DNA from: an uncultured Eubacterium sp.
GTDB lineage: Bacteria > Bacillota > Clostridia > Lachnospirales > Lachnospiraceae
Assembly: GCA_947089855.1 (NCBI GenBank)
Contig: CAMUML010000033.1
Coordinates: forward strand, 1-49,575
DNA length: 49,575 nucleotides
Reading direction: 5' to 3'
Part shown: positions 5,788-48,778 of the stretch, piece after piece
Numbering within the stretch: position 1 is the first letter of the stretch
How the letters are laid out: each line of letters begins with the position of its first letter
Notes under the pieces: generated by a model
Seen by the model: only the letters and a program-made list of their open reading frames with translations
What the model was told of the DNA's origin: nothing
Databases searched by the model: none
Program-made: the position numbers and the translations under genes

Positions 5788-5851
5788 TGCTGTATAGCGG
5801 GATGGAATGGACCGTTATATTGCTTGAATATGAGGTTTGGAGGGAGAAACT

Positions 5852-27362: not shown

Positions 27363-29121
27363 ATATTTTAACGGGATGGAAGCGGAACAGTACAGCTTTT
27401 ACAGGATTCCTAAAATGCTTTTCACGGAGGGCTGCTTTAAGCAGCTTTCCTGTGAAGCAAAGGTGCTGTACGGCCTTTTGTTAGACCGCATGGGGCTGAG
27501 CGTTAAAAACCGTTGGATAGATGAAAAAAACAGGGTTTACATCATGTTTACTGTTGAGGATATCATGGAGCTTTTAAACTGCGGGAAGCAGAAAGCGGTT
27601 AGGAGCCTGGCAGAGCTGGACAGCGAAAAAGGGATAGGGCTAGTCGAAAAGAAACGGCTTGGGCTTGGCAGGCCAAATGTGCTCTATGTGAAAAATTTTA
27701 TGCAGAAAGGCAGCGCGGATCAGAAGCCTAGGCACAATTTGGAGGATGAAAACGGTCAGGAGCCGGTGTATATGATGGGGAATGAAAGTGGCTTTGAGCC
27801 AGAACGCGGCATGGACAGTGAATGCAGCATGGATTTAGAGGAAAACCCGAAGAATGGGTATGGCCAGAAAATATGGAATGATATTGGATATGGAGAAGGT
27901 AGAAAGCCAGGGCATGACAGTGAGAGTAAAGGAAGTGGGGTGACAGGACAGTGGTGCAGCGGCGAACATCAACAGAAATGTGAAGGTCAAAATTTTATTG
28001 GGATTGGGGCAGAAGTCCAGGAAGTTATAAAGACGGACTTGCAAAAGCATGAAGATCAAATTTTTGGAATCATGGAATCAGAAATTCGGGAATCTTCGGA
28101 AACGGGACAAGAGTGCGAAGAACAGAATTGGTGGGAAATGGACTGTGCACATCAGGAGAACATAAATCCTGGTCTTTCAGGAGATGGAAACCAGGATTCA
28201 GAAAAAATGGCAGGCATATCCCTGGAGATGATGGAGCTGTTTGGAAACGGACAGGATTTAGGCGGAGATATTTTAGAAGAGCGGGAGCCGGATTTCCAGA
28301 AGTATGAAAATCATACTTCAAGAAGTTCCAAAATCATACTTCAAGAAGTTCCAGAATCATACTCCAAGAAGTTCCAAAACCATACTCTTGGGGATATGGA
28401 TGCAGAAAAAGCGGCTGATCCTGCGCAAAATTCACAGAAGTATGAAAATCATACTTCAAGAAGTTCCAAAATCATACTTCAAGAAGTTCCGGAATCATAC
28501 TTCAAGGAGTGTGAAAATCATACTTCTGGAAGTTCCGAAATCATACTTCAAGAAGTTCCAAAATCATACCCTAATGATACTGATAATAGTGATACTGAAT
28601 ATAACGATATTGAGAATAACAAGACTGAGGAAAGTGATACTGAATTGAGCGATACTTACACAGGTTTGTATGATCCTATCCAATCCTATCAATCTAATCA
28701 ATCTTATCCATCCAAGCCAGCAGACAGGAATGACGGTTTAATGGATGCAGGGGATAAGATGGATGGATACCGTAGCCTTATCCGGGATAATATCGCCTAC
28801 CACTGTTTTGAAGTTGACAAGTATTACAGCATTGAGGATGTGGACGAGTTCGTGGAGCTGATGGTGGAAGTCATGGCGATGCCGGATGGCAGCAGCTTAC
28901 GGGTGGCAGGCATGGAAAGGCCGGTCTCGATCGTCAAGAGCCGGTTCATGAAAATAAACAAAGGGCATATTGAGTACGTCATGGGATGCCTACAGAATAA
29001 CACGACAAAGATAGGCAATATAAAAGCCTACCTGTTGACGGCGCTGTATAATGCCACGCTGACGATCAGCAGCTATTACCGGGCAGAGGTGAACCATGAT
29101 CTGTACGGGGGAGGATGCTAA
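27343..29121 (+). CDS. RepA_N-family replication initiator with internal origin iterons
   Basis: 592 residues. Residues about 10-115 are the RepA_N initiator domain (FYRIPKMLFTEGCFKQLSCE, then AKVLYGLLLDRMGLSVKN, a winged-helix fold). The C-terminal 120 residues match the DUF6017 domain of these initiators (IRDNIAYHCFEVDKYYSIED, VDEFVELMVEVMAM). Between them is a long acidic low-complexity segment; residues about 323-413 are encoded by a 23-bp DNA repeat. RepA_N proteins start theta replication, and their origin is known to lie inside the rep gene in several plasmids. A GGAGAAGG lies 6 bases before ATG 27343. Confidence 0.88.
   Translation: MKKMEFEYFNGMEAEQYSFYRIPKMLFTEGCFKQLSCEAKVLYGLLLDRMGLSVKNRWIDEKNRVYIMFTVEDIMELLNCGKQKAVRSLAELDSEKGIGLVEKKRLGLGRPNVLYVKNFMQKGSADQKPRHNLEDENGQEPVYMMGNESGFEPERGMDSECSMDLEENPKNGYGQKIWNDIGYGEGRKPGHDSESKGSGVTGQWCSGEHQQKCEGQNFIGIGAEVQEVIKTDLQKHEDQIFGIMESEIRESSETGQECEEQNWWEMDCAHQENINPGLSGDGNQDSEKMAGISLEMMELFGNGQDLGGDILEEREPDFQKYENHTSRSSKIILQEVPESYSKKFQNHTLGDMDAEKAADPAQNSQKYENHTSRSSKIILQEVPESYFKECENHTSGSSEIILQEVPKSYPNDTDNSDTEYNDIENNKTEESDTELSDTYTGLYDPIQSYQSNQSYPSKPADRNDGLMDAGDKMDGYRSLIRDNIAYHCFEVDKYYSIEDVDEFVELMVEVMAMPDGSSLRVAGMERPVSIVKSRFMKINKGHIEYVMGCLQNNTTKIGNIKAYLLTALYNATLTISSYYRAEVNHDLYGGGC
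28309..28584 (+). repeat. 23-bp iteron arrays inside rep (probable replication origin)
   Basis: Two arrays with an exact 23-base period: starts at 28309, 28332, 28355 and 28378 (last degenerate), and 28447, 28470, 28493, 28516, 28539 and 28562 (some degenerate). The core is ATCATACTTCAAGAAGTTCC, containing the dyad ACTTC-AA-GAAGT. Since 23 is not a multiple of three, successive copies are read in different frames (NHTSRSS, IILQEVP, SYFKKFQ-like), showing that DNA, not protein, is conserved. AT-rich GATACTGA repeats follow at 28573-28650 and could be a melting region. Confidence 0.85.
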
Positions 29122-29487: not shown

Positions 29488-29523
29488 AAGGCAGCCAGAT
29501 ATTATCATTTGGCTGCCTTTTTT
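29488..29523 (+). terminator. Intrinsic terminator after the parA-parB-rep operon
   Basis: AAGGCAGCCA (29488-29497) pairs perfectly with TGGCTGCCTT (29510-29519), followed by six T ending at 29523. The 10-bp stem with a 12-base loop should stop transcription before the XRE regulator gene. Confidence 0.85.
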
Positions 29524-29541
29524 AACTTTTTTGAGGAATAA

Positions 29542-29566
29542 ACTTTGCGACATGGTGTCGCAAAGT
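29542..29566. promoter_or_regulatory. Palindromic site upstream of the XRE gene (copy of the 47-kb family)
   Basis: ACTTTGCGACA and TGTCGCAAAGT form perfect 11-base arms around TGG. Twenty-four bases are identical to the copy at 47260-47283. It lies about 110 bases before the XRE gene start, just after a terminator, where an operator or a partition site would be expected. Confidence 0.75.
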
Positions 29567-29673
29567 GTGCAGGGTGATCTATACGGGCTGGGTCATATGC
29601 ATGGCGTGGATTGAAAAAACACAGACAGGCTTCCAAAAATACAGGACAAAACAGCAGGCTGGGAGGAGAGGTT

Positions 29674-30030
29674 TTGAGGAATCGTGCAGGATCGCAGAAT
29701 CTAATCGATATTGGGAACTGTATCAGGGAACAGAGGCAGAAGGCCGGCATGTCACAGGAAAGCCTTGCGGAACTGGCAGGAATAAGCGTCAATACAGTAA
29801 GCCGGATCGAGGGAGGGCAGACGGCAATGTCCGTGGAAGTGTTCAAAAAACTGGTCTGCATACTGGGCATGGATGCAAACCTGCTGCTTGGAAGCCCGGA
29901 AATGCCACTGGAGGGCAGCAGGCGGATCTGTGAGATGTTCCGGCGCATGGAGCATCTGAAAAAGCAGGAACAGAAAATAGTCATACAGACCATGGATGCC
30001 CTGATAGACGGACTGGAGGGGCACAAGTAG
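29674..30030 (+). CDS. XRE-family transcriptional regulator
   Basis: 118 residues from TTG 29674, chosen because GGGAGGAG lies 5 bases upstream; an upstream TTG at 29611 lacks a comparable site. The HTH spans about residues 12-65: IGNCIREQRQKAGMSQESLA, then LAGISVNTVSRIEGGQTAMS. The C-terminus is a short charged helix that could mediate dimerisation. It resembles the small repressor-type regulators of mobile elements. The perfect palindrome at 29542 upstream is a natural candidate operator, and the same palindrome recurs near 47 kb. Confidence 0.8.
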   Translation: MRNRAGSQNLIDIGNCIREQRQKAGMSQESLAELAGISVNTVSRIEGGQTAMSVEVFKKLVCILGMDANLLLGSPEMPLEGSRRICEMFRRMEHLKKQEQKIVIQTMDALIDGLEGHK

Positions 30031-31606: not shown

Positions 31607-34471
31607 CTACATATCTGAAATATATGCATATTCAGCAAACAGTTGCTTTCTATATATTTTTCTTTTTTCACTGTTATTAGATTCAATTACAATAAATTTA
31701 AAAACAGCATTTATTAATTTAGGCAATATCTTTTGTATATCTTGTACTGTCCATATTGAGTCATTTATATTTATTTCATATAGATTTGCGTCACTTAAAT
31801 CTGCATTTATTAAATTAGCTCCATTCAGACTTGCTCTATATAAATTAGCTTTTTGCAAATTAGCCCCATTCAAATTAGCTGCTATTAAATCCATTTTACT
31901 CAAATTAGCATTCTTTAGAATTGCATTACATAGTTTTGATTCGCTTAAATCTGCTCCTTCCAGATTGGCATCACTCAAATTTATACCATTTAAATCAGCA
32001 AAACATATACTAGCTTTTTGCAAATTTTTTCCTACTAAATTGTTTTTAGACAAGTTTACGTTATCTAAATTTACCATTTGTAAATTAATATTTTGTGAAC
32101 TTAATGCGTTTCCTAATACTGCATCATGCAAGTTGGCAGATTCTAGGTTTGCGCCTGTTAAATTTGCATATACTAAATTTACATTTTCCAAATTAGCTCC
32201 TTTTAAATTAGCTCCCCTTAAATCTGCATATTGTAAATTAGCTCCCCTTAAATCTGCATATTGTAAATTAGCTTCACTTAAATTTGTATATTGTAAATCT
32301 GCCTCTCTTAAATCAACATATTGAAGATCTATTAATTTCAAATTCAAGTAGCTGAGATTAACTTTTACACAGTTTATTATACCATATTTAATATAGCTTT
32401 TAACACTTTGACTATTAGCATTTTCTATAATATATTTATTATCTCTTATATGTGATAGAAAACGCAAAATATCTAACATATTAAAAAAACAATTTACTTC
32501 TTCAGATATAATATTTTTAAAATCTTTAATATTTCTATTAGTAAAAAAGAACATACCATATTGCAACATCATAACAATTGTATTTTCCCACCATATATAA
32601 TATCTGTTTTTCTTTTCATGGTTCATTTTATAATAAAGCTTTATAAGTTTAGAATATAAAAATTCACCTATTGTATAAGTAATTTTCCCTTTCTTTAAAT
32701 AAAATGCAATATTTCCGGCAAGCTCTTCTTGACTATTTTCTGATAATTTCATTATAGCATTTTCTATGGAACTAAAAATAGTTTCAGCCACAAAATATTC
32801 ATAAATAGAACGATGTACAAAATATAGTTCTTCCGTTTCTAATCCTTCACAATGTTTCACAGATTTGAAATAATTTCCTATTTTAAAATCTATATCTATT
32901 ACTTCGCTTTTCATTTTGTTTTCTTGCATATTACATATATTTATATATTCTTTTTGTGAAATACATGCTCCATCAGGATTATTTTCAAATATCCACATTG
33001 CAATTTCTCTGGATACTTGATGTATCTGATTCTTAATTTTTCCAATTCTATGAGCATTTGCAAAACTCCTATTCTCTATGCATCTATCATATATTCCACC
33101 TTCTAAAGAAAAAATCCTGTCATACACGTCTACAACAGAACCTTCTTTCTCAACAAAAACATTTAGAGCTAAAACCATATATAGAATTAAAGGAATACCT
33201 AAAATTTCTTTATTATTTATTATGTTTGAAATTGTATCTTTAGAAATATTACTACCAGTTTTATCTTGATAAAGTTTGCAAAAACTTTTAACTTGTTTTT
33301 CATCCCACGCTTGTAAAGTAATATAGTCAAATTGGATTCTATGTAAATTCTGAATATAGTTTTCTCTGCATGTAATGATTATGGAAAAGTTGGAGAATGA
33401 TTTCTCTTTTATGAATTGCCAAAACAATTTATTTAAAATTTCTTCTCTGTTTCTCACACTTAATTCATCAAAACCATCAAGGATTAATGCTTTTCCATTT
33501 AAATCAATATCAGACAATCCAAATTTCATTAATATCTCTTCGGCAAGATTATATTTCTCACTTGTATTATTCCAATCTATAGTATTTAAATCAGATGCAA
33601 ATTGATATACTAAAATATCATCTGTAAGATTTTTAAGATTAGCTGTAATCCATGTAATTAATGAACTCTTTCCTATTCCAGGTTGTCCTAAAATGAGCAA
33701 CATTTTATTATCTTTTTGTTCATTTATGTATTCAGACAATAATAAATTTTTCAAATCTGTCCATATTTTATCATTATTATCTTTCCATATGTAATGAGGT
33801 AAATGAGCCTCTATATAAACATCTTTCAATTTTATATTCTTACCATTATTTTTATCTCTCTTATTAAAATTATTCAGGAACATATTTTCATTCCATTTAT
33901 TAGCATATTCCTGTGTTTTGTTTTTTACTTTTTTATGAATAGTATAATTTTGAGAAATTTTTTTATTTGTTTCGTTTTCTTTTATTTCAGTAACAATTTG
34001 CTTTACTTCATCCATGCCATATTTTATTGAATTGATGCCATCAATCTGCTGGTCTTGTTTTAGTAAACTCACTTCTTTATATAATTCATCACTTGTGCAT
34101 AGTTCTTGATATAATAATATTTTAAATTCTTCACAACTTTCACTATAAACAGTTTCACCGAAAACAGCTAAACCAGCTTTTACAGCTTCTATAATATCAC
34201 CTTTGTTATTTTTTAATCCTTTTAATAAATTTTCTGTCGCATCATAAATAATATCTTGATTTTCTTGATATTTACCATACGTTATTTCATTAAAAGCATT
34301 TACTATAACTTGATAAATTTGGGATTGCATATTTTCATTTTTAGTGATTTTGCTCTCAATTACCTTCTTAATTGAAGTTTTAGAAACATCTACACTATCA
34401 TTAATAATTTTTGATATAAAACCACCAATTACTCCACTAATTACTGTTCCCTCTGGTATCATAATTGCCAT
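31607..34471 (-). CDS. NACHT NTPase with C-terminal pentapeptide repeats (candidate defence protein)
   Basis: About 954 residues on the reverse strand, strongly AT-rich compared with its neighbours. Residues 1 to about 235 are helical without a recognised effector fold. The NACHT module follows: Walker A GQPGIGKSS (262-270), Walker B ALILDGFDELS (328-338) with the NACHT-type acidic DGFDE, sensor-like IIITCRENY, and FVHRSIYEYFVAE near 551-563. Residues about 703-901 are roughly 40 pentapeptide repeats of A(D/N)LXX type, a quadrilateral beta-helix. Bacterial NACHT proteins are known anti-phage ATPases; this domain pairing makes the same role plausible, but the effector is unknown. ATG 34471 is chosen because the upstream TTG overlaps the promoter; 34462 is possible. 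Confidence 0.85.
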   Translation of the reverse strand: MAIMIPEGTVISGVIGGFISKIINDSVDVSKTSIKKVIESKITKNENMQSQIYQVIVNAFNEITYGKYQENQDIIYDATENLLKGLKNNKGDIIEAVKAGLAVFGETVYSESCEEFKILLYQELCTSDELYKEVSLLKQDQQIDGINSIKYGMDEVKQIVTEIKENETNKKISQNYTIHKKVKNKTQEYANKWNENMFLNNFNKRDKNNGKNIKLKDVYIEAHLPHYIWKDNNDKIWTDLKNLLLSEYINEQKDNKMLLILGQPGIGKSSLITWITANLKNLTDDILVYQFASDLNTIDWNNTSEKYNLAEEILMKFGLSDIDLNGKALILDGFDELSVRNREEILNKLFWQFIKEKSFSNFSIIITCRENYIQNLHRIQFDYITLQAWDEKQVKSFCKLYQDKTGSNISKDTISNIINNKEILGIPLILYMVLALNVFVEKEGSVVDVYDRIFSLEGGIYDRCIENRSFANAHRIGKIKNQIHQVSREIAMWIFENNPDGACISQKEYINICNMQENKMKSEVIDIDFKIGNYFKSVKHCEGLETEELYFVHRSIYEYFVAETIFSSIENAIMKLSENSQEELAGNIAFYLKKGKITYTIGEFLYSKLIKLYYKMNHEKKNRYYIWWENTIVMMLQYGMFFFTNRNIKDFKNIISEEVNCFFNMLDILRFLSHIRDNKYIIENANSQSVKSYIKYGIINCVKVNLSYLNLKLIDLQYVDLREADLQYTNLSEANLQYADLRGANLQYADLRGANLKGANLENVNLVYANLTGANLESANLHDAVLGNALSSQNINLQMVNLDNVNLSKNNLVGKNLQKASICFADLNGINLSDANLEGADLSESKLCNAILKNANLSKMDLIAANLNGANLQKANLYRASLNGANLINADLSDANLYEININDSIWTVQDIQKILPKLINAVFKFIVIESNNSEKRKIYRKQLFAEYAYISDM

Positions 34472-34497
34472 GACCTTCCTATGTATAATAAATAACA

Positions 34498-34526
34498 ATT
34501 ATAGTGTAAAAGTATAACCATTTCAA
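34498..34526 (-). promoter_or_regulatory. Promoter of the NACHT gene
   Basis: On the reverse strand TTGAAA (34526-34521) and TATAAT (34503-34498) are separated by exactly 17 bases. Transcription would start near 34491, leaving a leader of about 20 bases with AGGAAGG. The gene therefore has its own promoter. Confidence 0.8.
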
Positions 34527-36022: not shown

Positions 36023-39000
36023 ATGAAAGGAAAAGTAAAGAGGATCGTTTCAGGAGTTCTTTCTGCCATGACGCTGCTGTCCTCTGCTGTCCAGCCCGCG
36101 ATTGTTTCTGCATCGGAAACGGCAGGGTATGAAGCGGAATATCCTGCTTTTGAACAGGTGAAAGACCGTCTGGATGCGGATGAGGTTGTCTCAGCAGAAG
36201 ATCATTTGACCGAAGCCGGAGGCGGCTTTGATGTGGAAAACGATCTTTCCGGGATCAGGTTTGATCCCAGGAAAGTAAAAGTGAAATTCCATGAAGCGGC
36301 AGATAAGGCCGGCAGCGCGTTTGACGGAAACCGTGCGGGAACTTACCGTGTAGTTTATCTTGTGAAGCCGTCCAGCGGGCATCCGTCCTACCATGTATGC
36401 CGGAATATCATAGTGAAAAAGCCCTCCGTGGAAAAGCAGGAAGAGAAGACCGCATCAGGGTCAGGCAGATCCGGCGGGCAGGAAGATTCCGGGAGCGGGG
36501 ATGATGAAGATGGTTCAGATACAGCAGGAGAACCCGGATCTGGGCAGGATGGCAGCCATGATGGTTCAGAGGAAGAAAGGGAAGAAAACCCGGATATAAT
36601 GGAAGATACAGGACAGACGGCAGATACAGAAACCGGGCTGACTGTGGACGGGGCCATGGCGCAGGCGGAAGGGCAGGGGATCGACCTGCTGGCGATGGAA
36701 GAGGGCGAAAGCGTTGTCTTTTATGCGGCATCAGGGGAGAAAGCCGAAGAAAAGGTGACCGTCACAAGGGGCGACTGTTTCCGTTATGCAGATTTCGGGC
36801 TTGGAACCTATTTGACATACAAGTACACGGTACACTTCGGGGATGTGTCGGCGACCGCCTACTGCGTCCAGCCGTCCAAGGATTCGCCGGACAGCGGCAC
36901 ATTTGGCATCACAAAGCTGAAAGATAAAAAAGGTCTTTCCAAAGTCTGCTATTACGGCACAAAGGCGAGCGGGGATGAAGGTTTCTTTGCGGAAAAACAC
37001 CCGGATTTCCCTTATGCGGAACAATTTATCCTCGTACATATGGCGGCAAGCCACGCAAACGGGAGTGAGGACGCTTTTTCCGGCGCAAGCAGCACGGGCA
37101 GGGAGCTTGCCCTGGAACTGTATGAATACTGCATGGCGCAGCCGGAGATTCCGGATGTTGACATGTCTTTTTCCAGTGACAGCGTGAACGCTTATGTGGA
37201 CGGGGACATCCAGCGGACGAAAGAGATCGTCTTTAAGGCGGATGAACTGCAGTCCATAACCATGAAGCTGCCGGAAGGCGTGAAGTTCCATAACGTGGAT
37301 ACCGGGAAAACAAGTAAAGCCGGGGCGGATGTGGAAGTCACCGGGGGCACGAGGTTCTACCTGTCCGCACCGCTGACACAGGCAGAAGATGTGTCAGCTG
37401 AATGGTCTGCAAGGATGAAAGGGAGCGTCACAAAGGATTATTCCGCGTATAAGATCTCGACAGGCAGCGGAAGCCAGGACCTTGCCCTTGTATTCGGGGA
37501 AGGCGTGGCGGATGAAAAATATGTGGAGTTTTCCGTCAGCTGGGTCGAGCCTGCAAAAATCCGCATAATAAAAGTGGATTCTGAAAATAAGGATGCAAGG
37601 CTGTCCGGCGCTGTGTTCGGCGTTTATGAGGACAAGGGATGCACAAAGCTCATTACAGAGATGCCCGCCACAAACAGCAATGGCGCGGCTGCCGTGGAAC
37701 TGATTAAGACACATGATACGGTCTATGTAAAAGAAATCAAGGCTCCAAAGGGATACAGCCTGAATGAGTCTGCATATAAGGTGAAACTGGATGCGGGCGG
37801 CACGGTCACTGAAACGGTGCCTGATAAGGAACTGCTCGGCGGGCTGTCTGTCTGCAAAGAAGGGCAGGCGCTCACCGGGGTGGATACGAACAGCAACGGC
37901 ACAGTGTTCCGCTATGAAAAGCGTCGCCTCCAGGGAGCTGTTTTTAACGTGTATGCAGGGGCGGACATTGTTACCGCTTACGGCACAAAAGTATTCAGAC
38001 GGGGAGACCTGGTAAAAGCCGGCCTGGTCACGGGCGCGGACGGCACGGCATCCGTGGAGGGCCTCCATGCCGGGACATATACTGTAAGGGAAATGAAAGC
38101 GCCGGTAAATTTTTATAACGCCGGTGAGGAAAAGACGGTAGAGGTTTCTGCGGCAGGGCAGGATGCGGAAGCGGTTTTTTCAGAAGCGTCCTTTACAAAT
38201 GAGCGCCAGAAGGCTGCTGTATCCATCTTAAAAAAGGACAGGGATACAGGCTCCGCGATGGGCGGGGTTGTTTTCGGACTGTATGCGGCGGAAAATATCC
38301 GGAATGCAGACGGCACAGGGATAGCTGCGAAAGGCACACTGATCGAAAAAGCCACGACAGCCGCAGACGGTACGGCGGCATTTTCCGCTGACCTGCCAGC
38401 CGGGTTTTCATACAGCGTGAAAGAGGAGCAGGCGCCGGAAGGCTATGTGCTGAATACGGAAGATGTGTATGTTTTCCGCTTTGCCTATACAAATGACAGG
38501 GAAGCGACCGTGCCTTTTGCGCATACATTCACAGATAAACGTGTCACCGCAAAGGTCACGCTCCATAAAAAGGATGCGGAAACAGGGAAAGCGTCGCCGC
38601 AGGGGGACGCAAGCCTGGAACATGCGGTCTACGGGCTTTATGCGCGTGAGGACATCATGCGCCCGGACGGTTCAGGGGCGGCTTATAAAGCAGGGTCACA
38701 GGTTGCAGTCCTGACTACCGGCAGGGACGGGGAAGCATATGCGGATAACCTTTACCTTGGGAAGTATTATGTGAAAGAGACCACTCCCCCAGTCGGCTAC
38801 CTGGCGGATGCAAAGGAATACGACCTTGTGTGCAGCTATGAAGGGGGCATGACGGCGGAAGTGGAGCGGGAATGCACTTCGCTGGAGCAGGTGAAGAAAC
38901 AGCCGTTCCAGATCATCAAGGCCGGGTATAACGGAAGCACGGATGTGGGGCTTCTGGCGGGCGCAGGGTTTACGGCTTACCTGGAGTCCTCGCTGACAAA

Positions 39001-42000
39001 AAAAGCAGATGGGAATTACGATTTCAATTCTGCAGACCCGGTTGTGACCGGCAGACACGGGGAGACGGAGATCTTCACGGATGAAAAAGGCTATGCCTGC
39101 AGCGCAGCGCTGCCATATGGCACGTATATCGTCCGTGAGACGACAACGCCGCATAACTATAAGCCGGTAAAGGATTTTACAGTCAGGATCACGGAAAACA
39201 GCCCGGACACGCCGCAGATGTGGAGGGTGCTGTTTGACGATGAATTTACGGCAAAGCTCAAGATCATCAAACAGGATGGTGCGACAAAGAGGCCGGTGCT
39301 GGTGAAAGGTGCGGAATTTAAGGTCTATGACATTGACCATGGCAGGTATGTGGAGCAGGTGACAACCTATCCGGCGACGGTAAAGCATGAGTCTTATTTT
39401 ACGGATGAAAACGGATACCTGATCCTGCCGCAGAACCTGGGCGCGGGGCGCTACCGGATTGAGGAAGTGAATGCGCCTTATGGGTATACGCTTAACCGGA
39501 ACTTTATTGAAGTGTCAGTCGATTCTGACGCTGCCTATCAGATGGATGGGATTTCCGGGGACGTCATTATTGAAGCTGTTTATGAAGACCATCAGGTGAA
39601 AGGGCAGATCCACATCGTAAAGTGCGGTGAAGCACTGAACAGTTTTGGGGATGGTTTCTCTTATAGAGAGGAAAAACTTGCGGGGGCCGTCTTTGCGGTA
39701 TATGCCGCAGAGGATATTTATCCGGCGGACTGCCAGAAGGACGCGGATGGGAACCGCATCCTGGAATATGCGTCCGGCCAGCTGGTGGGAACCGTAACAA
39801 CGGATGGAAACGGGGAAGCGGCGCTTTCAAACCTTCCACTTGGGACTTACCGCATTGTGGAGACGGAAGCGCCGGATGGCTTTGTGCTGGACGGACAGGA
39901 GCAGACGGTAACGCTTTCCTATGAAGGGCAGGACACGCCTGTTGTGGAGCAGACGGCAGAAATGAAAAATAAGCGGCAGAAAGTGGAGGTTTCCGTCACA
40001 AAGAAGGATTCTGACACGGAAAAGCCTTTATCCGGCGCAGAGTTCGGGCTTTATGCAAAGACAGATATCCTGGCGCACGGGGATGTGGTCGCAGAAAAAG
40101 GCACACTGCTTGCAAAAGCGGTCTCTGGCAGGGATGGAAAAGCGGAGTTTAAGGCAGACCTCCCTTTTGGAGATTATTATATACGGGAGCTTTCAGCGCC
40201 TGCCGGGTATGCATCGTCTGGTGAAACGCTTGAAGTAACGGCGGCTTACCAGGGCCAGGATGTGGAAACGGTGCAGATCCCTTCCATTTTTAATAACAGG
40301 CCGACAAGAGTTTCTGTGAAAAAGAAAGACCTTGCAACCGGCGTGACGGTTTCTGGGGCTGCGCTTTCCATCATTGATAAGGATGGGAATGTGGTAGAAA
40401 GATGGCAGTCCGAAAAAGGCGCGGGGAATGTGGTCGAACGGCTCACTGCAGGGGAGGCTTATACGCTGCGTGAAGAGATGGCCCCATACGGCTACCTGCT
40501 GGCAGAGGAAGCTACATTTACTGTGGAAGATACAGAAGAAACACAGGAAGTGGAATTAAAGGACGATGTGCCGACGGCAAGGCTGATCATCAATAAGGAA
40601 GGCGAGTTCCTGGAAGATGTTTCAGCTTTGGAATCCGTGAGCGGCTGGATCGACCACTTTTTTGAGTATATCACCGGCTCTTTGAAAGATGTAACCTTTG
40701 AAGTATATGCCTTAGAAGATATCAAGGCGGCTGACGGGGAGAGCGGGGATTATTATAAGAAAGACGATTTGATCGGCACAATTACTACGGACAGCACGGG
40801 GATTGCAGAACTTTCCGGCCTGCCGCTCGGCAGATATTACGTCAAAGAAAAAGCGACCGCCGAAGGGTATGTCCTGGATGACAAAGCCAGGGAGATCGAC
40901 CTGACCTACCGCGACCAGTACACTGCGGAAGTCACTTATTCCTCTGACTGGCTGAATGACCGCCAGAAGGCAGGGGTGCGTGTGCTGAAAAAGGAGAAAG
41001 GCTCTGACCGTGTGCTGGAAGGCGCCGTGTTTGCGCTCTGCGCGAAGGAAGATATTGCCAGTGCGGACGGCAGGGTAATCATGGAAGCGGATACGGTGAT
41101 TGAGGAAAAGGCCACGGATGCGGACGGGACGCTTGTTTTTACTGCAGACCTTCCGATCGGATATTCTTATTACATTAAGGAGACATTCCCGGCGCCCGGT
41201 TTTGCAACGGCACAGGAAGCGCAGGAGTTTACATTCACATATGGGGATGCAGCGGAAGAAAGCGTTTACTATGATTTTACGTTTGAGGACGAGCCTGTGG
41301 TCTTTGAGTTCCTGAAACTGTCGTTAAAGGACGGCAGCAGGGTGGAAGGCGCAGCGCTGCAGCTGTCGGATGCGGATGGGAACGTTGTGGAATCATGGAT
41401 TTCCGGCACAGAGCCGCATACCATCCGGGAGCTTGTTGTGGGAAAGAAATATACATTGACAGAAACACGGCCTGCAGACGGATATGTGACGGCAGGGGAC
41501 ATTGTGTTTACAGTAGAAGACACTGGGGAAATCCAGGAAATTGCAATGGAAGATGATGTAACAAAAGTGGAAATCTCCAAACAGGATTTTGGCGGGAAGG
41601 AACTGCCCGGCGCATCGCTTTCGATCTTAGACCAGGATGGGAATATTGTGGAAAGCTGGGTATCCGGGGAAGAGCCGCATTATATGGAAATGCTGCCGAT
41701 CGGGGAATATGTGCTGCATGAAGAAAAGGCGCCGGACGGTTATGTGACAGCGGAAGACGTGCCGTTTACGGTGGACGATACCGGTGGGATCCAAAAAGTT
41801 ACAATGAAAGATGATGTGACAAAAGTGGAAATCTCCAAGCAGGATATTGGCGGGAAAGAACTGCCGGGCGCAAAACTTGCCATCCTTGATAAAGACGGGA
41901 AAACGGTGGAAAGCTGGGTATCCGGGGAAGAGCCGCATTACATGGAGATGCTGCCGATCGAGGAATATGTGCTGCGTGAGGAAAAAACCCCGGACGGCTA

Positions 42001-44041
42001 TGTGACGGCAGAAGATGTGAGATTTACGGTAAAAGATACGGGAGAGATCCAGAAAGTCACTATGAAAGACGATGTGACAAAAGTGGAGATCTCGAAACAG
42101 GACTTCGGCGGGAAGGAACTGCCGGGGGCAGAGCTTGCCATTCTTGATAAAGGCGGGAAAACCGTGGAAAGCTGGACATCGACGGAAAAGCCGCATTATA
42201 TGGAAATGCTTCCAGTCGGCCAGTATATCCTGCGGGAGAAAGCAGCGCCGGACGGTTATGTGACGGCAGAAGATATCCTGTTTATAGTAGAAGACACTGG
42301 AGAGATCCAGAAAGTCACGATGAAAGATGATGTGACGAAAGTGGAAATCTCGAAACAGGATCTTGGCGGGAAGGAACTGCCTGGGGCAAAGCTGTATATT
42401 TTTGACCAGGCAGGGAAGATAGTGGAAAACTGGACTTCCGCTGAAAAACCGCATTATATCGAAATGCTGCCTGTTGGCAGGTATGTACTGCATGAAGAAA
42501 CAGCGCCGGATGGATATGCGACTGCGGAAGATATTTCTTTTACCGTGGAAGATACGGGAAAGATCCAGAAAGTCACGATGAAAGATGACGTGACAAAAGT
42601 GGAGATCTCCAAGCAGGATATCGGCGGGAAAGAACTGCCTGGCGCAAAACTTACCATCCTTGACAAAGATGGGAAAACTGTGGACAGCTGGGTATCAACC
42701 GAAAAAGCACATTATGTTGAAAAGCTGCCTGTTGGAGAATATGTGCTCCGCGAGGAGGCAGCGCCGGACGGCTATGTATCCGCAGAGGATGTGAGATTTA
42801 CGGTCAAAAATACGGGAGAGATCCAGAAAGTCACGATGAAGGATGACGTGACAAAAGTGGAGATTTCCAAACAGGATCTTGGCGGGAAGGAACTGCCAGG
42901 AGCCAGACTTGTTATCCTTGATAAAGACGGGGAAACCGTGGACAGCTGGGTATCGACCGAAAAATCGCATTATGTTGAAAAACTTCCTGTTGGGGATTAT
43001 GTGCTCCATGAGGAGACAGCACCGGACGGTTATGTAACTGCAGAGGATGTGAAATTTACAGTCAAAGATACGGGAGAGATCCAGAAAGTCACGATGAAAG
43101 ATGACGTGACAAAAGCAGAGATTTCCAAGCAGGATATCGGCGGGAAAGAACTGCCGGGAGCAAAACTTACCATCCTTGATAAGGACGGGAAAACCGTGGA
43201 CAGCTGGGTATCAACCGAAAAAGCGCATTATATTGAAAAACTGCCTGTTGGGGACTATGTGCTCCACGAGGAGGCAGCGCCGGACGGTTATGTAACCGCA
43301 GAGGATGTGAAATTTACGGTGGACGATACGGGAGAGATCCAGAAAGTCACGATGAAAGATGGTGTGACAAAAGTGGAGATTTCCAAGCAGGATATTGGCG
43401 GAAAAGAACTGCCTGGGGCAAAACTTACCATCCTTGATAAAGACGGAAAAACCGTGGACAGCTGGGTATCAACCGAAAAATCGCATTATGTTGAAAAACT
43501 GCCTGTTGGGGACTATGTGCTCCACGAGGAGACAGCGCCGGACGGTTATGTAACCGCAGAAGATATTCCTTTTACGGTAAAAGATACGGGAAAAATCCAG
43601 AAAGTCAAGATGAAGGACGATGTGACAAAAGTGGAGATCTCCAAGCAGGATATCGGCGGGAAAGAGCTGCCTGGCGCATCGCTTTCCATTTTAGACCAGG
43701 ATGGGAATACTGTAGAAAGCTGGGTGTCCGGGGACAAGCCGCATCATATCGAAATGCTTCCGGCAGGCGGTTATACGCTGCATGAGGAAAAGGCGCCGGA
43801 AGGATACCTGGAAGCGGAAGATGTGCCATTTACCGTGGAAGATACAGGCGAGATCCAGAAAGTTGTGATGGTGGATGAAACAAGCCCATCCGATACACCG
43901 GACACGCCGCCGTCCAGGACTCCAAAAACAGGCGACGACAGGAACTGGATCTTATGGATCGCGCTTGCGCTGCTTGCAGCCTGCGGCATTGCAGGTTCCA
44001 TTGCGCTGCTCTGCAGGGAGAGGAGGGATAAGCAAAAATAA
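36023..44041 (+). CDS. Giant cell-wall adhesin: thioester domain, many SpaA/Cna-B domains, LPxTG-like anchor
   Basis: 2672 residues. A signal peptide (about 1-31, ending VSA) leads to an acidic low-complexity spacer (about 135-215), then a thioester-type domain (about 245-375) with a Cys near 280 (TAYCVQPSK) and Gln near 334 (YAEQFILVH), the pair known to form a reactive thioester in Gram-positive adhesins. About a dozen SpaA/Cna-B domains follow (recurrent GAxFxVY and YxxxExxAPxGY), which form Lys-Asn isopeptide bonds. Nine near-identical 86-residue repeats precede the sorting signal: TPKTGDD, a membrane segment and RRDKQK. It probably promotes cell contact or mating-pair formation; no sortase is in the window. 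Confidence 0.9.
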   Translation: MKGKVKRIVSGVLSAMTLLSSAVQPAIVSASETAGYEAEYPAFEQVKDRLDADEVVSAEDHLTEAGGGFDVENDLSGIRFDPRKVKVKFHEAADKAGSAFDGNRAGTYRVVYLVKPSSGHPSYHVCRNIIVKKPSVEKQEEKTASGSGRSGGQEDSGSGDDEDGSDTAGEPGSGQDGSHDGSEEEREENPDIMEDTGQTADTETGLTVDGAMAQAEGQGIDLLAMEEGESVVFYAASGEKAEEKVTVTRGDCFRYADFGLGTYLTYKYTVHFGDVSATAYCVQPSKDSPDSGTFGITKLKDKKGLSKVCYYGTKASGDEGFFAEKHPDFPYAEQFILVHMAASHANGSEDAFSGASSTGRELALELYEYCMAQPEIPDVDMSFSSDSVNAYVDGDIQRTKEIVFKADELQSITMKLPEGVKFHNVDTGKTSKAGADVEVTGGTRFYLSAPLTQAEDVSAEWSARMKGSVTKDYSAYKISTGSGSQDLALVFGEGVADEKYVEFSVSWVEPAKIRIIKVDSENKDARLSGAVFGVYEDKGCTKLITEMPATNSNGAAAVELIKTHDTVYVKEIKAPKGYSLNESAYKVKLDAGGTVTETVPDKELLGGLSVCKEGQALTGVDTNSNGTVFRYEKRRLQGAVFNVYAGADIVTAYGTKVFRRGDLVKAGLVTGADGTASVEGLHAGTYTVREMKAPVNFYNAGEEKTVEVSAAGQDAEAVFSEASFTNERQKAAVSILKKDRDTGSAMGGVVFGLYAAENIRNADGTGIAAKGTLIEKATTAADGTAAFSADLPAGFSYSVKEEQAPEGYVLNTEDVYVFRFAYTNDREATVPFAHTFTDKRVTAKVTLHKKDAETGKASPQGDASLEHAVYGLYAREDIMRPDGSGAAYKAGSQVAVLTTGRDGEAYADNLYLGKYYVKETTPPVGYLADAKEYDLVCSYEGGMTAEVERECTSLEQVKKQPFQIIKAGYNGSTDVGLLAGAGFTAYLESSLTKKADGNYDFNSADPVVTGRHGETEIFTDEKGYACSAALPYGTYIVRETTTPHNYKPVKDFTVRITENSPDTPQMWRVLFDDEFTAKLKIIKQDGATKRPVLVKGAEFKVYDIDHGRYVEQVTTYPATVKHESYFTDENGYLILPQNLGAGRYRIEEVNAPYGYTLNRNFIEVSVDSDAAYQMDGISGDVIIEAVYEDHQVKGQIHIVKCGEALNSFGDGFSYREEKLAGAVFAVYAAEDIYPADCQKDADGNRILEYASGQLVGTVTTDGNGEAALSNLPLGTYRIVETEAPDGFVLDGQEQTVTLSYEGQDTPVVEQTAEMKNKRQKVEVSVTKKDSDTEKPLSGAEFGLYAKTDILAHGDVVAEKGTLLAKAVSGRDGKAEFKADLPFGDYYIRELSAPAGYASSGETLEVTAAYQGQDVETVQIPSIFNNRPTRVSVKKKDLATGVTVSGAALSIIDKDGNVVERWQSEKGAGNVVERLTAGEAYTLREEMAPYGYLLAEEATFTVEDTEETQEVELKDDVPTARLIINKEGEFLEDVSALESVSGWIDHFFEYITGSLKDVTFEVYALEDIKAADGESGDYYKKDDLIGTITTDSTGIAELSGLPLGRYYVKEKATAEGYVLDDKAREIDLTYRDQYTAEVTYSSDWLNDRQKAGVRVLKKEKGSDRVLEGAVFALCAKEDIASADGRVIMEADTVIEEKATDADGTLVFTADLPIGYSYYIKETFPAPGFATAQEAQEFTFTYGDAAEESVYYDFTFEDEPVVFEFLKLSLKDGSRVEGAALQLSDADGNVVESWISGTEPHTIRELVVGKKYTLTETRPADGYVTAGDIVFTVEDTGEIQEIAMEDDVTKVEISKQDFGGKELPGASLSILDQDGNIVESWVSGEEPHYMEMLPIGEYVLHEEKAPDGYVTAEDVPFTVDDTGGIQKVTMKDDVTKVEISKQDIGGKELPGAKLAILDKDGKTVESWVSGEEPHYMEMLPIEEYVLREEKTPDGYVTAEDVRFTVKDTGEIQKVTMKDDVTKVEISKQDFGGKELPGAELAILDKGGKTVESWTSTEKPHYMEMLPVGQYILREKAAPDGYVTAEDILFIVEDTGEIQKVTMKDDVTKVEISKQDLGGKELPGAKLYIFDQAGKIVENWTSAEKPHYIEMLPVGRYVLHEETAPDGYATAEDISFTVEDTGKIQKVTMKDDVTKVEISKQDIGGKELPGAKLTILDKDGKTVDSWVSTEKAHYVEKLPVGEYVLREEAAPDGYVSAEDVRFTVKNTGEIQKVTMKDDVTKVEISKQDLGGKELPGARLVILDKDGETVDSWVSTEKSHYVEKLPVGDYVLHEETAPDGYVTAEDVKFTVKDTGEIQKVTMKDDVTKAEISKQDIGGKELPGAKLTILDKDGKTVDSWVSTEKAHYIEKLPVGDYVLHEEAAPDGYVTAEDVKFTVDDTGEIQKVTMKDGVTKVEISKQDIGGKELPGAKLTILDKDGKTVDSWVSTEKSHYVEKLPVGDYVLHEETAPDGYVTAEDIPFTVKDTGKIQKVKMKDDVTKVEISKQDIGGKELPGASLSILDQDGNTVESWVSGDKPHHIEMLPAGGYTLHEEKAPEGYLEAEDVPFTVEDTGEIQKVVMVDETSPSDTPDTPPSRTPKTGDDRNWILWIALALLAACGIAGSIALLCRERRDKQK
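41552..43873 (+). repeat. Nine tandem 258-bp repeats encoding 86-residue Cna-B-like domains
   Basis: Each unit begins DDVTKVEISKQDIGGKELPG (copies vary at a few positions) and ends TGEIQKVTMK. Nine units fill 41552-43873 exactly. Units 5-8 are the most alike, including at the DNA level, which indicates recent duplication or gene conversion. The last unit resembles the first more than its neighbours. Confidence 0.92.
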
Positions 44042-44479: not shown

Positions 44480-44984
44480 GGTAAATGAAAAGACAGTTTC
44501 ACTGTGCGTGAACGGCGGAAAGGTCACTGCACGAATATTTAAAGCCGCCCTTGTAAAAATGCTGGCGAAGATGGAACAGGGGAAAAAGGACGGGCAGCGG
44601 AAGGAGATGAAAAAAACAGGGAAGGGGGAGGCTGTCAGCCATGGGAAGCAGAGTATGGAAAAACTGATGCGCCAGGGCTGCCAGCTTTCCAATATCGAAG
44701 TGACGGACGGCAATATCCGTTCCTTTGAAAAATATGCGAGGAAGTACAGCATAGATTTCAGCCTGAAAAAAGACACATCCGTGGAGCCGCCGCGTTATTT
44801 TGTGTTCTTCAAGGCGAAAGACGTGGATGTGATGACGGCGGCGTTCCGGGAATACACAGGCAAGTCACTGGGGAAGGGCCGGAAACCGTCCATCCGCAGG
44901 AAACTAGAGATTGCAAAGGAGCGCACGGCAAAACACAGGGAGCTGGAAAAGACAAAGCAGAAGGAACGGGGGCCGGAGCATTGA
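44469..44984 (+). CDS. pcfB: PcfB-family conjugation protein (DUF3801)
   Basis: 171 residues from ATG 44469 (ATG 44460 is also possible). The sequence has the DUF3801/PcfB pattern: basic and helical at both ends, with the central RQGCQLSNIEVTDGNIRSFE, then YARKYSIDFSLKKD and VFFKAKDVDVMTAAFREYTG. In pCF10, PcfB is an accessory protein acting with the coupling protein PcfC during conjugation. It is followed by, and overlaps by 4 bases (TTGA), the VirD4-type gene, as in other conjugative elements. Confidence 0.85.
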   Translation: MQDEVNEKTVSLCVNGGKVTARIFKAALVKMLAKMEQGKKDGQRKEMKKTGKGEAVSHGKQSMEKLMRQGCQLSNIEVTDGNIRSFEKYARKYSIDFSLKKDTSVEPPRYFVFFKAKDVDVMTAAFREYTGKSLGKGRKPSIRRKLEIAKERTAKHRELEKTKQKERGPEH

Positions 44985-46924
44985 GCGGGAAAAAGAAAAA
45001 AACAAAAGCGCATGGGCCGTTAAAGCTGGGCTGGAAGATCAGAGGCATGTTAAGGGAAAGGTTCCCTATGATGGACGGAAGGCGGCTGCTCATGCTGAAC
45101 ATCCCTTATATCATCATATTTTATATGGCGGATAAAGCCGCATGGCTGTTCCGGCACTGCACGGGGGATTCTTTGACTGAGAAGGCGGGCGTCCTGTTTT
45201 TAAATTTCCAGATGGCGTTTGACAGCCCGCTCCCAAGCATCCATGAGCATGACCTGCTGGCAGGCGCCGCGGGGGCTGCCGCCGTAAAGCTGGCTGTATA
45301 TATGAAAGGGAAGAATGCGAAAAAATACCGGCAGGGAGAAGAATACGGTTCCGCACGATGGGGGACGCCGAAAGACATTGCGCCGTTTATCGACCCGGTA
45401 TTTGAGAACAACATCCTTTTGACGCAGACGGAGCGGCTGACCATGGACAGCAGGCCGAAACAGCCCAAATATGCAAGGAATAAGAACGTCATCGTGATCG
45501 GCGGTTCCGGCTCAGGCAAGACGCGGTTTTATGTAAAGCCGCAGCTGATGCAGATGACGCCGAATGTCAGCTACGTGGTCACTGACCCGAAAGGGACGAT
45601 CTTAGTCGAGTGCGGGGAGATGCTGAAACGCGGCACGCCAAAGATAAAAGATGGGAAAGCGGTACGGGATAAGAATGGGAAGACAGTTTATGAGCCATAC
45701 AAGATAAAGGTCCTGAATACCATCAATTTCAAGAAAAGTATGCATTATAACCCTTTTATGTATATCCGCTCCGAAAAGGATATCCTAAAGCTGGTCAATA
45801 CGATCATTGCAAACACGAAGGGGGAAGGCGAGAAATCTTCCGAGGATTTCTGGGTGAAGGCTGAACGGCTTTTATACTGTGCGCTGATCGGGTACATCTA
45901 TTATGAAGCCCCGGAAGAGGAACAGAACTTTTCCACACTGCTTGAATTTATCAATGCGTCCGAAGCAAGGGAGGAGGATGAAGAATTTAAAAATGCCGTG
46001 GACGAACTGTTCGAGGAACTGGAGAAGGAAAGGCCGGAACACTTTGCGGTAAGGCAGTATAAAAAATACAAACTTGCCGCTGGAAAGACAGCCAAGAGCA
46101 TACTTATCAGCTGCGGCGCAAGGCTCGCGCCGTTTGACATCGCAGAGCTGCGGGAGCTGACAAGCTATGATGAAATGGAACTGGATATGCTCGGAGACCA
46201 GCGGACGGCGATGTTTGTCATTATCTCTGACACGGATGACACGTTCAATTTTATCGTGGCTATCATGTACAGCCAGCTGTTCAACCTCCTGTGCGACCGC
46301 GCGGATGACGTGCATGGCGGCAGGCTCCCTTACCATGTCAGGCTGCTTTTGGACGAGTTCAGCAATATCGGCCAGATCCCGAAGTTTGACAAGCTGATCG
46401 CAACGATAAGGAGCAGGGAGATTTCAGCGTCGATCATCTTGCAGTCACAGAGCCAGTTAAAAACCATTTATAAGGATGCGTCTGAAACGATACTTGGGAA
46501 CTGCGATACCATGCTGTTCCTTGGGGGCAAGGAAGGCTCCACTTTAAAAGAGATTTCCGAAAATTTAGGGAAGGAGACGATAGATTTATATAATACGTCT
46601 GACACGCGCGGGCAGAGCCGCTCCTACGGGCTGAATTATCAGAAAACGGGGAAGGATTTGATGTCAAGGGATGAGCTAGCTGTAATGGATGGGAATAAAT
46701 GCATCCTGCAGCTGCGGGGTGTGCGCCCGTTTCTAAGCGATAAATTCGACATTACCAGACACAAACGGTATAAGGATCTGTCAGACTATGATAAAAAGAA
46801 TGCCTTTGACGTAGAGGCTTATATGAAACGCCAGTTACGGATCAGGATGAAGGAGGAATTTGAGCTTTTTGAAGTGGACGCAGGTATGCAGGATGATGAA
46901 GGGACTGGGAATGCAGATGGGTAA
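44981..46924 (+). CDS. VirD4/TraG-type coupling protein (PcfC-like)
   Basis: 647 residues. One or two N-terminal membrane segments (about 38-50, 90-106) precede the ATPase: EEYGSARWGTPKDI, Walker A GGSGSGKT (174-181), VVTDPKGTILVECG, and Walker B VRLLLDEFSNIGQIP near 455-470, followed by LQSQSQLKTIYKD. VirD4 ATPases carry the relaxase-DNA complex to the type IV secretion channel. The start is TTG 44981, inside the pcfB stop. The C-terminal tail is acidic. It shows that the element, with its off-window partners, belongs to a conjugative system. Confidence 0.92.
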   Translation: MSGKKKKTKAHGPLKLGWKIRGMLRERFPMMDGRRLLMLNIPYIIIFYMADKAAWLFRHCTGDSLTEKAGVLFLNFQMAFDSPLPSIHEHDLLAGAAGAAAVKLAVYMKGKNAKKYRQGEEYGSARWGTPKDIAPFIDPVFENNILLTQTERLTMDSRPKQPKYARNKNVIVIGGSGSGKTRFYVKPQLMQMTPNVSYVVTDPKGTILVECGEMLKRGTPKIKDGKAVRDKNGKTVYEPYKIKVLNTINFKKSMHYNPFMYIRSEKDILKLVNTIIANTKGEGEKSSEDFWVKAERLLYCALIGYIYYEAPEEEQNFSTLLEFINASEAREEDEEFKNAVDELFEELEKERPEHFAVRQYKKYKLAAGKTAKSILISCGARLAPFDIAELRELTSYDEMELDMLGDQRTAMFVIISDTDDTFNFIVAIMYSQLFNLLCDRADDVHGGRLPYHVRLLLDEFSNIGQIPKFDKLIATIRSREISASIILQSQSQLKTIYKDASETILGNCDTMLFLGGKEGSTLKEISENLGKETIDLYNTSDTRGQSRSYGLNYQKTGKDLMSRDELAVMDGNKCILQLRGVRPFLSDKFDITRHKRYKDLSDYDKKNAFDVEAYMKRQLRIRMKEEFELFEVDAGMQDDEGTGNADG

Positions 46925-46990
46925 GGGAACATGGAGCGGAGGGCATGGCTGATGTATGGATGTCCTTTTTTGATGCGCTGTAGCCTGGAA

Positions 46991-47283
46991 CCTTGCGACA
47001 CGGTGTCGTGAAGTTATCCAGATTGAAACTGCAATAATGCAGGACTTGGGATAGGAACTTTGCGACACTGTGTCGTAAAGCGTGGCGCTCTGGAACCATG
47101 ATACTGCAGAAAGATATGAATATCTGAACTTTGCGGCATGGTGCCATGAAGTTCACGTTTTAATAAACACAATATAAGAATCAGCTGTTTATACCTTGCG
47201 ACACAGTGTCGTGAAGTTTTACAGAATGAGATCACAGTTTTATATGACCGTGGGCCGGAACTTTGCGACATGGTGTCGCAAAG
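46991..47283. repeat. Array of five spaced palindromes before the PAPS-reductase-like gene
   Basis: Five copies centred at 47002, 47069, 47140, 47205 and 47272 (intervals 67, 71, 65, 67). Consensus TTTGCGACAYNGTGTCGYRA; the last copy is identical over 24 bases to the site at 29542. Copy three has both arms changed (GGCAT/GTGCC), keeping pairing, a sign of selection for symmetry. They fill a 430-base region without genes. Possible roles: operators of the XRE protein, or a ParB centromere. Confidence 0.85.
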
Positions 47284-47301
47284 CAGGCAGTAAAAATCCA
47301 T

Positions 47302-47339
47302 TGGCAGGATGACAGCGGGACATCTTCCACATCCTGCCA
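47302..47339 (+). promoter_or_regulatory. 10-bp hairpin in the leader of the PAPS-reductase-like gene
   Basis: TGGCAGGATG (47302-47311) pairs perfectly with CATCCTGCCA (47330-47339), 18-base loop, ending 18 bases before the ATG at 47358. There is no T-run, so it is more likely an RNA stability or translational element than a terminator. Confidence 0.6.
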
Positions 47340-47357
47340 TAAACAGACAGGAGGCAC

Positions 47358-48653
47358 ATGAACAGACATACGATAGGAGACCTGTACCAGATGCAGTCGC
47401 TGCCATTGTCTGAAAAAATAAAAATGACAGGGCGCCGGATACGCGAATGGCTGGACTATTACGGCAGTGACGGCGTATACATTGGGTTTAGCGGGGGCAA
47501 GGACAGTTCCGTTTTACTGGATATGGCAAGGAAGATATGCCCGGAAATCCCTGCCGTATACGTGGACACCGGGCTTGAATATCCGGAGGTCAGAGAGTTT
47601 GTGAAGCGGCATGAAAATGTAGAGATACTCAGGCCGAAGATGAATTTCCGGCAGGTCATTGAAAAATACGGCTATCCATTTATTGGGAAGGAAGTTGCGG
47701 GCTGTGTATACGGCGCGCGCAGATACATGAAAAAACTGATCAGCAGAGAAACGGGGCAAGGAGGCAGCGGCATTATCCCCAACCACAGCTACATGGCAGA
47801 CCTGGCGGGGATTGACCGGAGACAGGATAAGGGAAATGAGCTCTATCAGCACCTGATTCGCGGTGAGATACCAAGCACGGACATAAAAGCGCCAGTCCGC
47901 TACCTGATCATGCACGGCAGGTATCCCCATAAGGAAAAAGGGGCGGAAACATCAGAATATTCCCAAATGTACAATAAGGAAAGATACAAATTTTTTTTGG
48001 AAGCGCCCTTTGAAATATCTGACAACTGTTGTAACGTCATGAAAAAGGCACCCATGCACAGCTATTCCAAAAAGACGGGGCGGATGCCCATGACAGCGCA
48101 GATGGCAAGCGAGAGCCGTCTGCGGACGACCATATGGCTGAAAAACGGGTGCAACGGGTTCCATATGAAAAGCCCCATCAGCAACCCGATGTCTTTCTGG
48201 ACGGAGCAGGATGTGCTTGAATATATTTACCTTTACCGGATACCGCTTGCGGATGTGTATGGGGAAGTCCTGGCGGAAAATAAGAAAAACGGGAAAAGGC
48301 AGGCAGGGGAAAGCACGGCGGAGCTTGGGATCTTTGATGAAGGGAAGCCTTTCTACAGGACAACTGGATGCAGCAGGACGGGGTGCGTTTACTGCGGCTT
48401 TGGGAGCCACAGGGAAAAATCTCCGAACCGGTGGGAGACCGCAGAGGTGCTCTCAAACCCAGCGCTTGTCGATTATATGCTGCGGGGAGGGGGTTTTGAT
48501 GAAAGCGGCGTCTGGAAACCGGACAGCAGGGGGCTTGGGTTCTGGTTTGTCATAGAATGGATCAACACCCATGGGAGTCTGCATATCATCATGCCGCGCC
48601 GGGAGGAATACCTTGGGCAGTATATGACTGCGGAAACGGAGGCATATCTGTAA
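47358..48653 (+). CDS. PAPS-reductase-family PP-loop protein
   Basis: 431 residues. The adenylylation PP-loop is at 45-50 (GFSGGKDSSVLLD), followed by VYVDTGLEYPEVREFVKR as in PAPS/APS reductases and DndC. Further on, NPMSFWTEQDVLEYI and a cysteine cluster TGCSRTGCVYCGFGS (about residues 345-358) suggest an Fe-S or zinc site. This longer form is common on phages and conjugative elements, where the true reaction is mostly unknown; sulfur transfer to nucleic acid is possible. It has CAGGAGG 5 bases before the ATG and lies behind the palindrome array. Confidence 0.78.
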   Translation: MNRHTIGDLYQMQSLPLSEKIKMTGRRIREWLDYYGSDGVYIGFSGGKDSSVLLDMARKICPEIPAVYVDTGLEYPEVREFVKRHENVEILRPKMNFRQVIEKYGYPFIGKEVAGCVYGARRYMKKLISRETGQGGSGIIPNHSYMADLAGIDRRQDKGNELYQHLIRGEIPSTDIKAPVRYLIMHGRYPHKEKGAETSEYSQMYNKERYKFFLEAPFEISDNCCNVMKKAPMHSYSKKTGRMPMTAQMASESRLRTTIWLKNGCNGFHMKSPISNPMSFWTEQDVLEYIYLYRIPLADVYGEVLAENKKNGKRQAGESTAELGIFDEGKPFYRTTGCSRTGCVYCGFGSHREKSPNRWETAEVLSNPALVDYMLRGGGFDESGVWKPDSRGLGFWFVIEWINTHGSLHIIMPRREEYLGQYMTAETEAYL

Positions 48654-48778
48654 GCGCATGAAGGCCGGACAGATAAAAAGCGCCTGGAAAATAAAGCGGC
48701 AGGACTGCTATGGCACAGAAGGGATGGAAATTACCAGTTCTGGCCGTAAAGAGGAAAGATTCTATTGGAGGCAGAGGC

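Follow-up and report, generated by a model that had tools for sequence, protein, structure and literature searches.

On the IncP plasmid RK2, the ParB-family protein KorB is described as acting at palindromic OB sites in both partition and gene control (PMC11790492), and the account of the IncP-9 plasmid NAH7 places six parSNAH inverted repeats across its backbone, one of them before a transfer gene, with ParB binding parSNAH and activating transfer genes (PMC12421886). For ParB and Noc, specificity for parS and NBS is reported to be set by a few DNA-contact residues, and R204 of Caulobacter ParB is reported to contact parS (PMC7383237). The mobile element SGI1 is described as hijacking the parABS system of IncC, i.e., as using another element's ParB (PMC10954446). 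Here, we analysed a 49,575-bp window that is an entire contig (C33) of a 101-contig genome, and whose right half is occupied, based on profile matches, by a conjugative element that is thus truncated. This element carries six copies of a 27-bp palindrome which, with a probability that we put at about 0.75, are parS-type binding sites of its own ParB (26469–27362). No paper describing these sites was found in the open-licence literature.

The likeness to RK2 KorB and OB lies in a ParB-family protein, here the proposed binder, and in palindromic sites spread across a conjugative backbone, several of which lie beside replication, transfer, or control units. However, OB is given as 16 bp in that report (PMC11790492), whereas the window site spans 27 bp, has an odd centre, and belongs to RepA_N/ParAB elements. 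The window shares with NAH7 the presence of six dispersed inverted repeats, but the NAH7 site is described as an 18-bp even palindrome of proteobacterial plasmids, whereas the sites considered here have lineage-specific cores and several lie in parB. Chromosomal ParB and Noc proteins resemble the window ParB in their ParB_N domain and HTH, and Spo0J is its best solved relative (1vz0, E = 2.3e-24), yet the window site is another, longer sequence, and the R173/R204 pair of Caulobacter ParB corresponds to G173/E204 in the window protein (numbering transferred by alignment).

As in ParABS systems, ParA and ParB are encoded together on the element: parA, the presumed partner ATPase (25697–26482, + strand; AAA_31, 3e-56), precedes parB (26469–27362, +; TIGR00180 parB_part, 96.4 bits for a cut-off of 58.45). 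The motif GHRRWRA of this ParB aligns with GERR(Y/W/F)RA of solved ParBs, placing it among ParB-family proteins with a CTP-binding motif and a predicted use of CTP. Downstream lie repA (27343–29121, +; RepA_N and DUF6017 by profile match), an intrinsic-terminator-like hairpin also common in relatives (29488–29519, +), and the gene of an XRE regulator, the rival candidate binder (29674–30030, +; HTH_3, 1.1e-13), whose start codon is likely TTG judging from conservation in relatives. The virD4 coupling protein gene (44981–46924, +; T4SS-DNA_transf, 1e-53) and a PAPS_reduct-domain gene (47358–48653, +; PF01507, 3.6e-18) lie further along, the place of the latter being occupied by other genes in relatives, and the element also includes a DUF3801 gene and two sigma-like genes. 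Within the repA coding sequence, 23-bp direct repeats (~28269–28598) are possibly replication-origin iterons; they are a different sequence from the palindromes, which we rejected as iterons on this basis. The transfer region also encodes a 2,672-aa surface protein (36023–44041) in which a thioester domain is accompanied by 21 SpaA-type matches (258-bp repeat units). An AT-rich-looking NACHT and pentapeptide-repeat gene (31607–34498, −), perhaps an inserted defence-type gene, sits roughly at the place that, in some relatives, follows the sigma-like genes and bears a second palindrome. A plasmid collection contained nothing DNA-similar to positions 46900–48700.

Allowing up to three mismatches, TTTGCGACAYNGTGTCGYRA has 11 strand-matches in the window, located at six positions; 100 shuffles averaged 0.06, which argues against a chance origin. 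We also derived a symmetric weight matrix of 27 bp from 46 sites, including five from the window itself. It likewise recovers six window sites, with the next best place in the window at −0.5 bits and the best score among 20 mononucleotide shuffles at 9.4 bits. These scans confirm the palindrome reported in a first-pass annotation of this DNA, but the full palindrome (AACTTTRCGACAYNRTGTCGYAAAGTT) extends over 27 bp rather than the 24 bp originally proposed; its dyad symmetry is as expected of a parS-type site. One copy (29541–29567, 43.8 bits) lies between the terminator-like hairpin that follows repA and the XRE gene, and the other five, assigned like the first to neither strand, form a cluster between virD4 and the PAPS-like gene, at 46989–47015 (35.7 bits), 47056–47082 (38.8 bits), 47127–47153 (18.6 bits, still above the best of the 20 shuffles), 47192–47218 (32.6 bits), and 47259–47285 (40.4 bits). 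This number and placement, the spacings within the array (67, 71, 65, and 67 bp), and the 17,448 bp between the XRE-side copy and the first array copy are all as annotated (65–71 bp and ~17 kb), while the outer copies (29541 and 47259), said to be identical over 24 bases, agree over 25. Compensating changes had also been claimed for one copy: the degenerate site at 47127 does have one A-T pair replaced by G-C, but another of its pairs is broken and two are G-T. Across the whole genome, at up to three mismatches, five places are mismatch-free, all on C33; apart from the weak copy at 47127, the only other matches are on contigs C5 and C86, each with three mismatches, and look like chance.

The regular ~67-bp spacing had been taken to fit cooperative binding or looping, but neighbouring sites in relatives are ~36–75 bp apart and the number of copies after virD4 varies, so that a fixed-phase looping array was rejected. 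The window array also contains a pair of blocks that share 75% identity across 92 bp (repeat D18), and part of its regularity may therefore stem from duplication.

Sites with the same core recur in related elements. Among 397 genomes sampled from this family, 19 (own genome counted) matched the core motif at up to one mismatch, and six matched the reversed-pattern control (manual count); several of the single matches are probably chance. Relatives carry the site just 5′ of the XRE gene and, in some cases, also past the second sigma-like gene, and their sites after virD4 range from none found to three copies. In seven relative genomes, a site lies upstream of a recombinase gene, which was judged from sequence to be serine-like in six (L057, L058, L061, L065, L069, and L073) and to be a tyrosine-like integrase, accompanied by a small excisionase-like gene, in L047. 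In two genomes (G025 and G319), the scan at one mismatch recovered no sites other than the XRE-side and recombinase-side ones. At positions 3030–7676 of L055, the virD4 matches fall into two parts separated by ORFs that look reverse-transcriptase-like from their sequence, perhaps a group II intron. A scan of IMG/VR with the GCG core returned 15 stretches, which is not clearly above chance by rough estimate, and these were left aside.

More broadly, related RepA_N/ParAB conjugative elements share a common frame, AACTT-N4-ACA-N3-TGT-N4-AAGTT, in which the core is the same, to within one base, at the sites of an element and differs from one element to another. This general pattern matched 88 of the 397 genomes at up to one mismatch (part of the matched places being listed), and its reversed control matched 29 (manual count), so that part of the matches must be chance; poorly palindromic matches, and DnaA-box-like matches beside dnaA/rpmH-like genes (L171, L181, and L194; judged from sequence), were set aside. 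For comparison, shuffled sequence yields ~0.03 frame palindromes per 20 kb. The cores encountered include CGGG/TGGG (nine sites in L244 and L245 together), CTGG/TTGG (L253, L303, L304, and L306), GTGG (L305), and CTGG with a TCA half (L301), and palindromes with the same outer frame and a different core occur in L125 and L128. Across elements, sites are found repeatedly after repA, before DUF3801, after virD4, and before the recombinase.

In several other lineages, a site lies within parB itself, spelled by synonymous codons for T-S-x-Q-V-x-x-K-L or T-[YC]-G-H-D-V-H-[KR] ahead of the HTH. The internal site was found in 11 parB genes, always at the same codon position, although not all of these genes are independent (L195 and L309 have the same segment, and L119 and L128, as well as L208 and L248, are alike). 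These sites form 10–12 pairs, compared to means of 4.4–7.7 in 20,000 synonymous shuffles with each gene's own codon usage (p ≤ 0.0006 in ten genes and p = 0.016 in L178): conservation of the protein accounts for some of the frame, whereas it leaves the complementarity unexplained. Eight of the 11 genes were found via pattern or palindrome scans, and three (L309, L311, and L312) by ParB similarity alone. ParB similarity was used to pick five annotated loci (L309–L313); four have an in-parB palindrome, L309 and L310 being one element judging from their site and its position; the fifth, the plasmid L313, encodes ParA and ParB and has no palindrome worth the name.

When the distribution of sites is compared with that of the two candidate binders, sites tend to go with ParB rather than with XRE. 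A ParB search matched 144 of the 397 genomes at E ≤ 1e-40, and 10 of the 30 loci returned (~3.9 kb each) contained a frame palindrome, with 0.007 expected per locus; one of these ten (L272) had been identified before as L252. The 13 loci with a window-type ParB (L259–L271) all lack a site within ~1.5 kb of parB, and in the window itself the site nearest to parB lies past repA. In wider stretches around seven site-less ParB loci, four had sites, all with the CTGG/TTGG core expected from their DNA-binding domains (an expectation not noted beforehand), and the other three had no site in reach. L296 encodes a ParB that is 69% identical, and has no site in 15 of the 22.4 kb of its contig nor any match in the core-motif scan of its genome, and L129 and L130 have a ParB and no frame palindrome. 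In L239–L242, CGGG/GTGG-type palindromes are present (L239, 8761 and 12392; L241, 7671 and 13209; L242, 8489 and 10950) without a ParB match, and the Pfam annotation of nine L241 ORFs includes RepA_N, Mob_Pre, and HTH_3 (XRE) and no ParB. These sites possibly use a helper's ParB or another binder; the former would be comparable to the described use of another element's ParB by SGI1.

The core of the site also co-varies with ParB. We performed Mantel tests on 39 element groups, of which 36 had both frame-filtered sites and a ParB (L068, L112, and L122 being dropped) and 30 of these also a ParA; these 30 elements were chosen by us, and any ParB element in which no site had been detected was left out. 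The core correlated with the ParB DNA-binding domain (r = 0.51) and equally well with the ParB C-terminal part (r = 0.54), followed by ParA (r = 0.36) and the ParB N-domain (r = 0.25; permutation p = 0.0005 for each). In partial tests, the DNA-binding domain retained a correlation of 0.38 given ParA, and ParA one of 0.02 given the DNA-binding domain. At the position aligned with the DNA-contacting R204, all 16 elements with a TRYG core have E, and all 18 non-TRYG elements with a residue there have V or I, based on core labels assigned by hand and a numbering transferred through the Spo0J alignment; L125 has a gap at this position, and L296 and L129 have E and V, respectively, without a site. 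In L060, the ParB N-domain shares 81% identity with its counterpart in L212 (CCCG/CTCG sites), while the DNA-binding domain is nearer to that of the window (58%) than to that of L212 (47%), and the L060 sites are TRCG. Because the elements are related and were selected, the co-variation partly reflects shared descent. Site and ParB appear to co-evolve, within the limits set by element kinship and by L296.

Both XRE and ParB had been proposed as binders in the first-pass annotation, and the comparison disfavours the former. As the operator of the adjacent XRE protein, the palindrome would mediate autoregulation, as is usual for XRE proteins, and element-wide repression of transfer genes and the recombinase. 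Its placement agrees with this role: in a scan of genomes by XRE alignment (80 loci), all 28 loci from L091 to L118 (XRE 52–61% identical) have a site 48–174 nt upstream of the XRE match, 16 of them with a further site 1.8–2.3 kb downstream (not all loci extend that far), and the 397 family genomes yielded 15 XRE loci, 11 of which have the site beside this gene. However, sites are neither present wherever XRE is nor restricted to elements that encode it. L252, L298, and L300 carry a ParB and TGCG/TGTG-core sites in stretches in which no XRE was found (E 1e-8), with frame and site positions unchanged. Among L119–L131, only L122 and L126 have a site upstream of XRE, ten loci have none (including L119–L121, L123, L124, and L127–L130), and L131 has no upstream sequence; the distant XRE loci L132–L170 all lack a site upstream of XRE. 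L121, L123, and L124 have XRE and RepA, with no site and no ParA/ParB match within 10 kb upstream (tblastn, 1e-6), and amount to two independent cases, L121 and L123 being near copies with near-identical XRE. Moreover, XRE recognition helices are much alike in TGCG, CCCG, and TTGG elements, i.e., near-identical despite different cores, and the copies within parB also argue against an XRE operator. XRE as the sole binder was rejected based on the XRE-less sites, the site-less XRE loci, and the similarity of these helices, which leaves an XRE operator an improbable reading.

Alternatively, the palindromes could be transcribed hairpins, positioned between a terminator and a ribosome-binding site and functioning in attenuation, translation, or processing. 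Indeed, of 21 distinct regions upstream of XRE, 19 have a terminator-like hairpin no more than 80 nt before the site (8.3% in random stretches), the site ends close to the apparent ribosome-binding site of the next gene in several elements, and a similar order of terminator, palindrome, and start is seen before DUF3801 in L253, L304, and L306. The same order fits a junction between transcription units; sigma-70-like promoters were not detected at the cluster, and two weak candidates lie near the XRE gene. Mismatches within the sites speak against RNA, since A-C types (20) outnumber G-U types (13) across 24 distinct XRE-upstream sites read in transcript orientation, as for independent DNA half-sites, and copies also lie within parB. 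Selection thus acts on two half-sites of double-stranded DNA, and the RNA hairpin, rejected on these mismatches, is very unlikely; the earlier suggestion of selected symmetry was a good guess. Just as remote is the prospect of another element protein, e.g., a relaxase or oriT accessory protein, a recombinase, or sigma-like proteins: sites do lie near virD4 and upstream of recombinases, but they are dispersed over tens of kb, and their core is constant whether the recombinase looks tyrosine-like (L047) or serine-like (L057, L061, and L073).

Most simply, every element's ParB would recognise the variant of the site found on that element. For the window, this reading draws on the sites and their repeated positions, double-strand symmetry, occurrence without XRE, and co-variation with ParB, all features of sequence, and binding of the palindromes by the element's ParB is highly probable. 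A ParB dimer would recognise two 12-bp half-sites (AACTTTRCGACA), then probably load and slide like other CTP-clamp ParBs. As a centromere, the sites would support ParA-driven partition of the excised, RepA-replicated circle, a role that we consider somewhat favoured; as regulatory sites, they would control transcription of the XRE, transfer, and recombinase units, for which the chances are about even. The first-pass annotation had left the choice between regulon and centromere open, which was a good guess, and the dispersal of sites over replication, regulator, and transfer junctions (and recombinase junctions in relatives) now suggests a KorB-like double role. From what is described for NAH7 ParB and RK2 KorB, such dual partition and transfer-control sites are possible (PMC12421886, PMC11790492).

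More tentatively, and with the odds against it, these sites may represent an element-specific parS barcode in RepA_N/ParAB conjugative elements of Lachnospiraceae and relatives. Under this hypothesis, a small number of ParB residues would read a core that varies within a constant 27-bp frame, and copies of the site would have reached the places where replication, transfer, and recombinase modules meet and, in certain lineages, parB itself by way of synonymous codons. ParB would couple partition to the control of transfer and excision and separate co-resident elements, and mobilizable elements without ParB would carry matching sites to exploit a helper's ParB. A large family of gut conjugative elements would then fall under one readable code, with ParB allowing prediction of the core of the site, and with regulons and partition compatibility of integrative elements open to mapping from sequence. 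It would also provide a series of naturally occurring ParB-site pairs with which to follow the evolution of DNA specificity, and would broaden ParB-linked control of conjugation, as described for RK2 and NAH7, to include integrative elements of Firmicutes.

The ParB account does not explain L296, the sites of L239–L242, or a set of AACTTGCAGACA...TGTCTGCAAGTT palindromes (L204, 310 and 1588; L214, 4007 and 5169; L217, 9691 and 10853; L203, 440), which are paired ~1.2–1.3 kb apart in three viral contigs (L204, L214, and L217) and around which the available stretches gave no ParB match. Separately, a small contig (L247) carries four identical CTGG/TTGG palindromes at an exact 216-bp spacing (5247–5921), and in the same genome the DNA-binding domain of ParB (L280) belongs to the CTGG/TTGG type.
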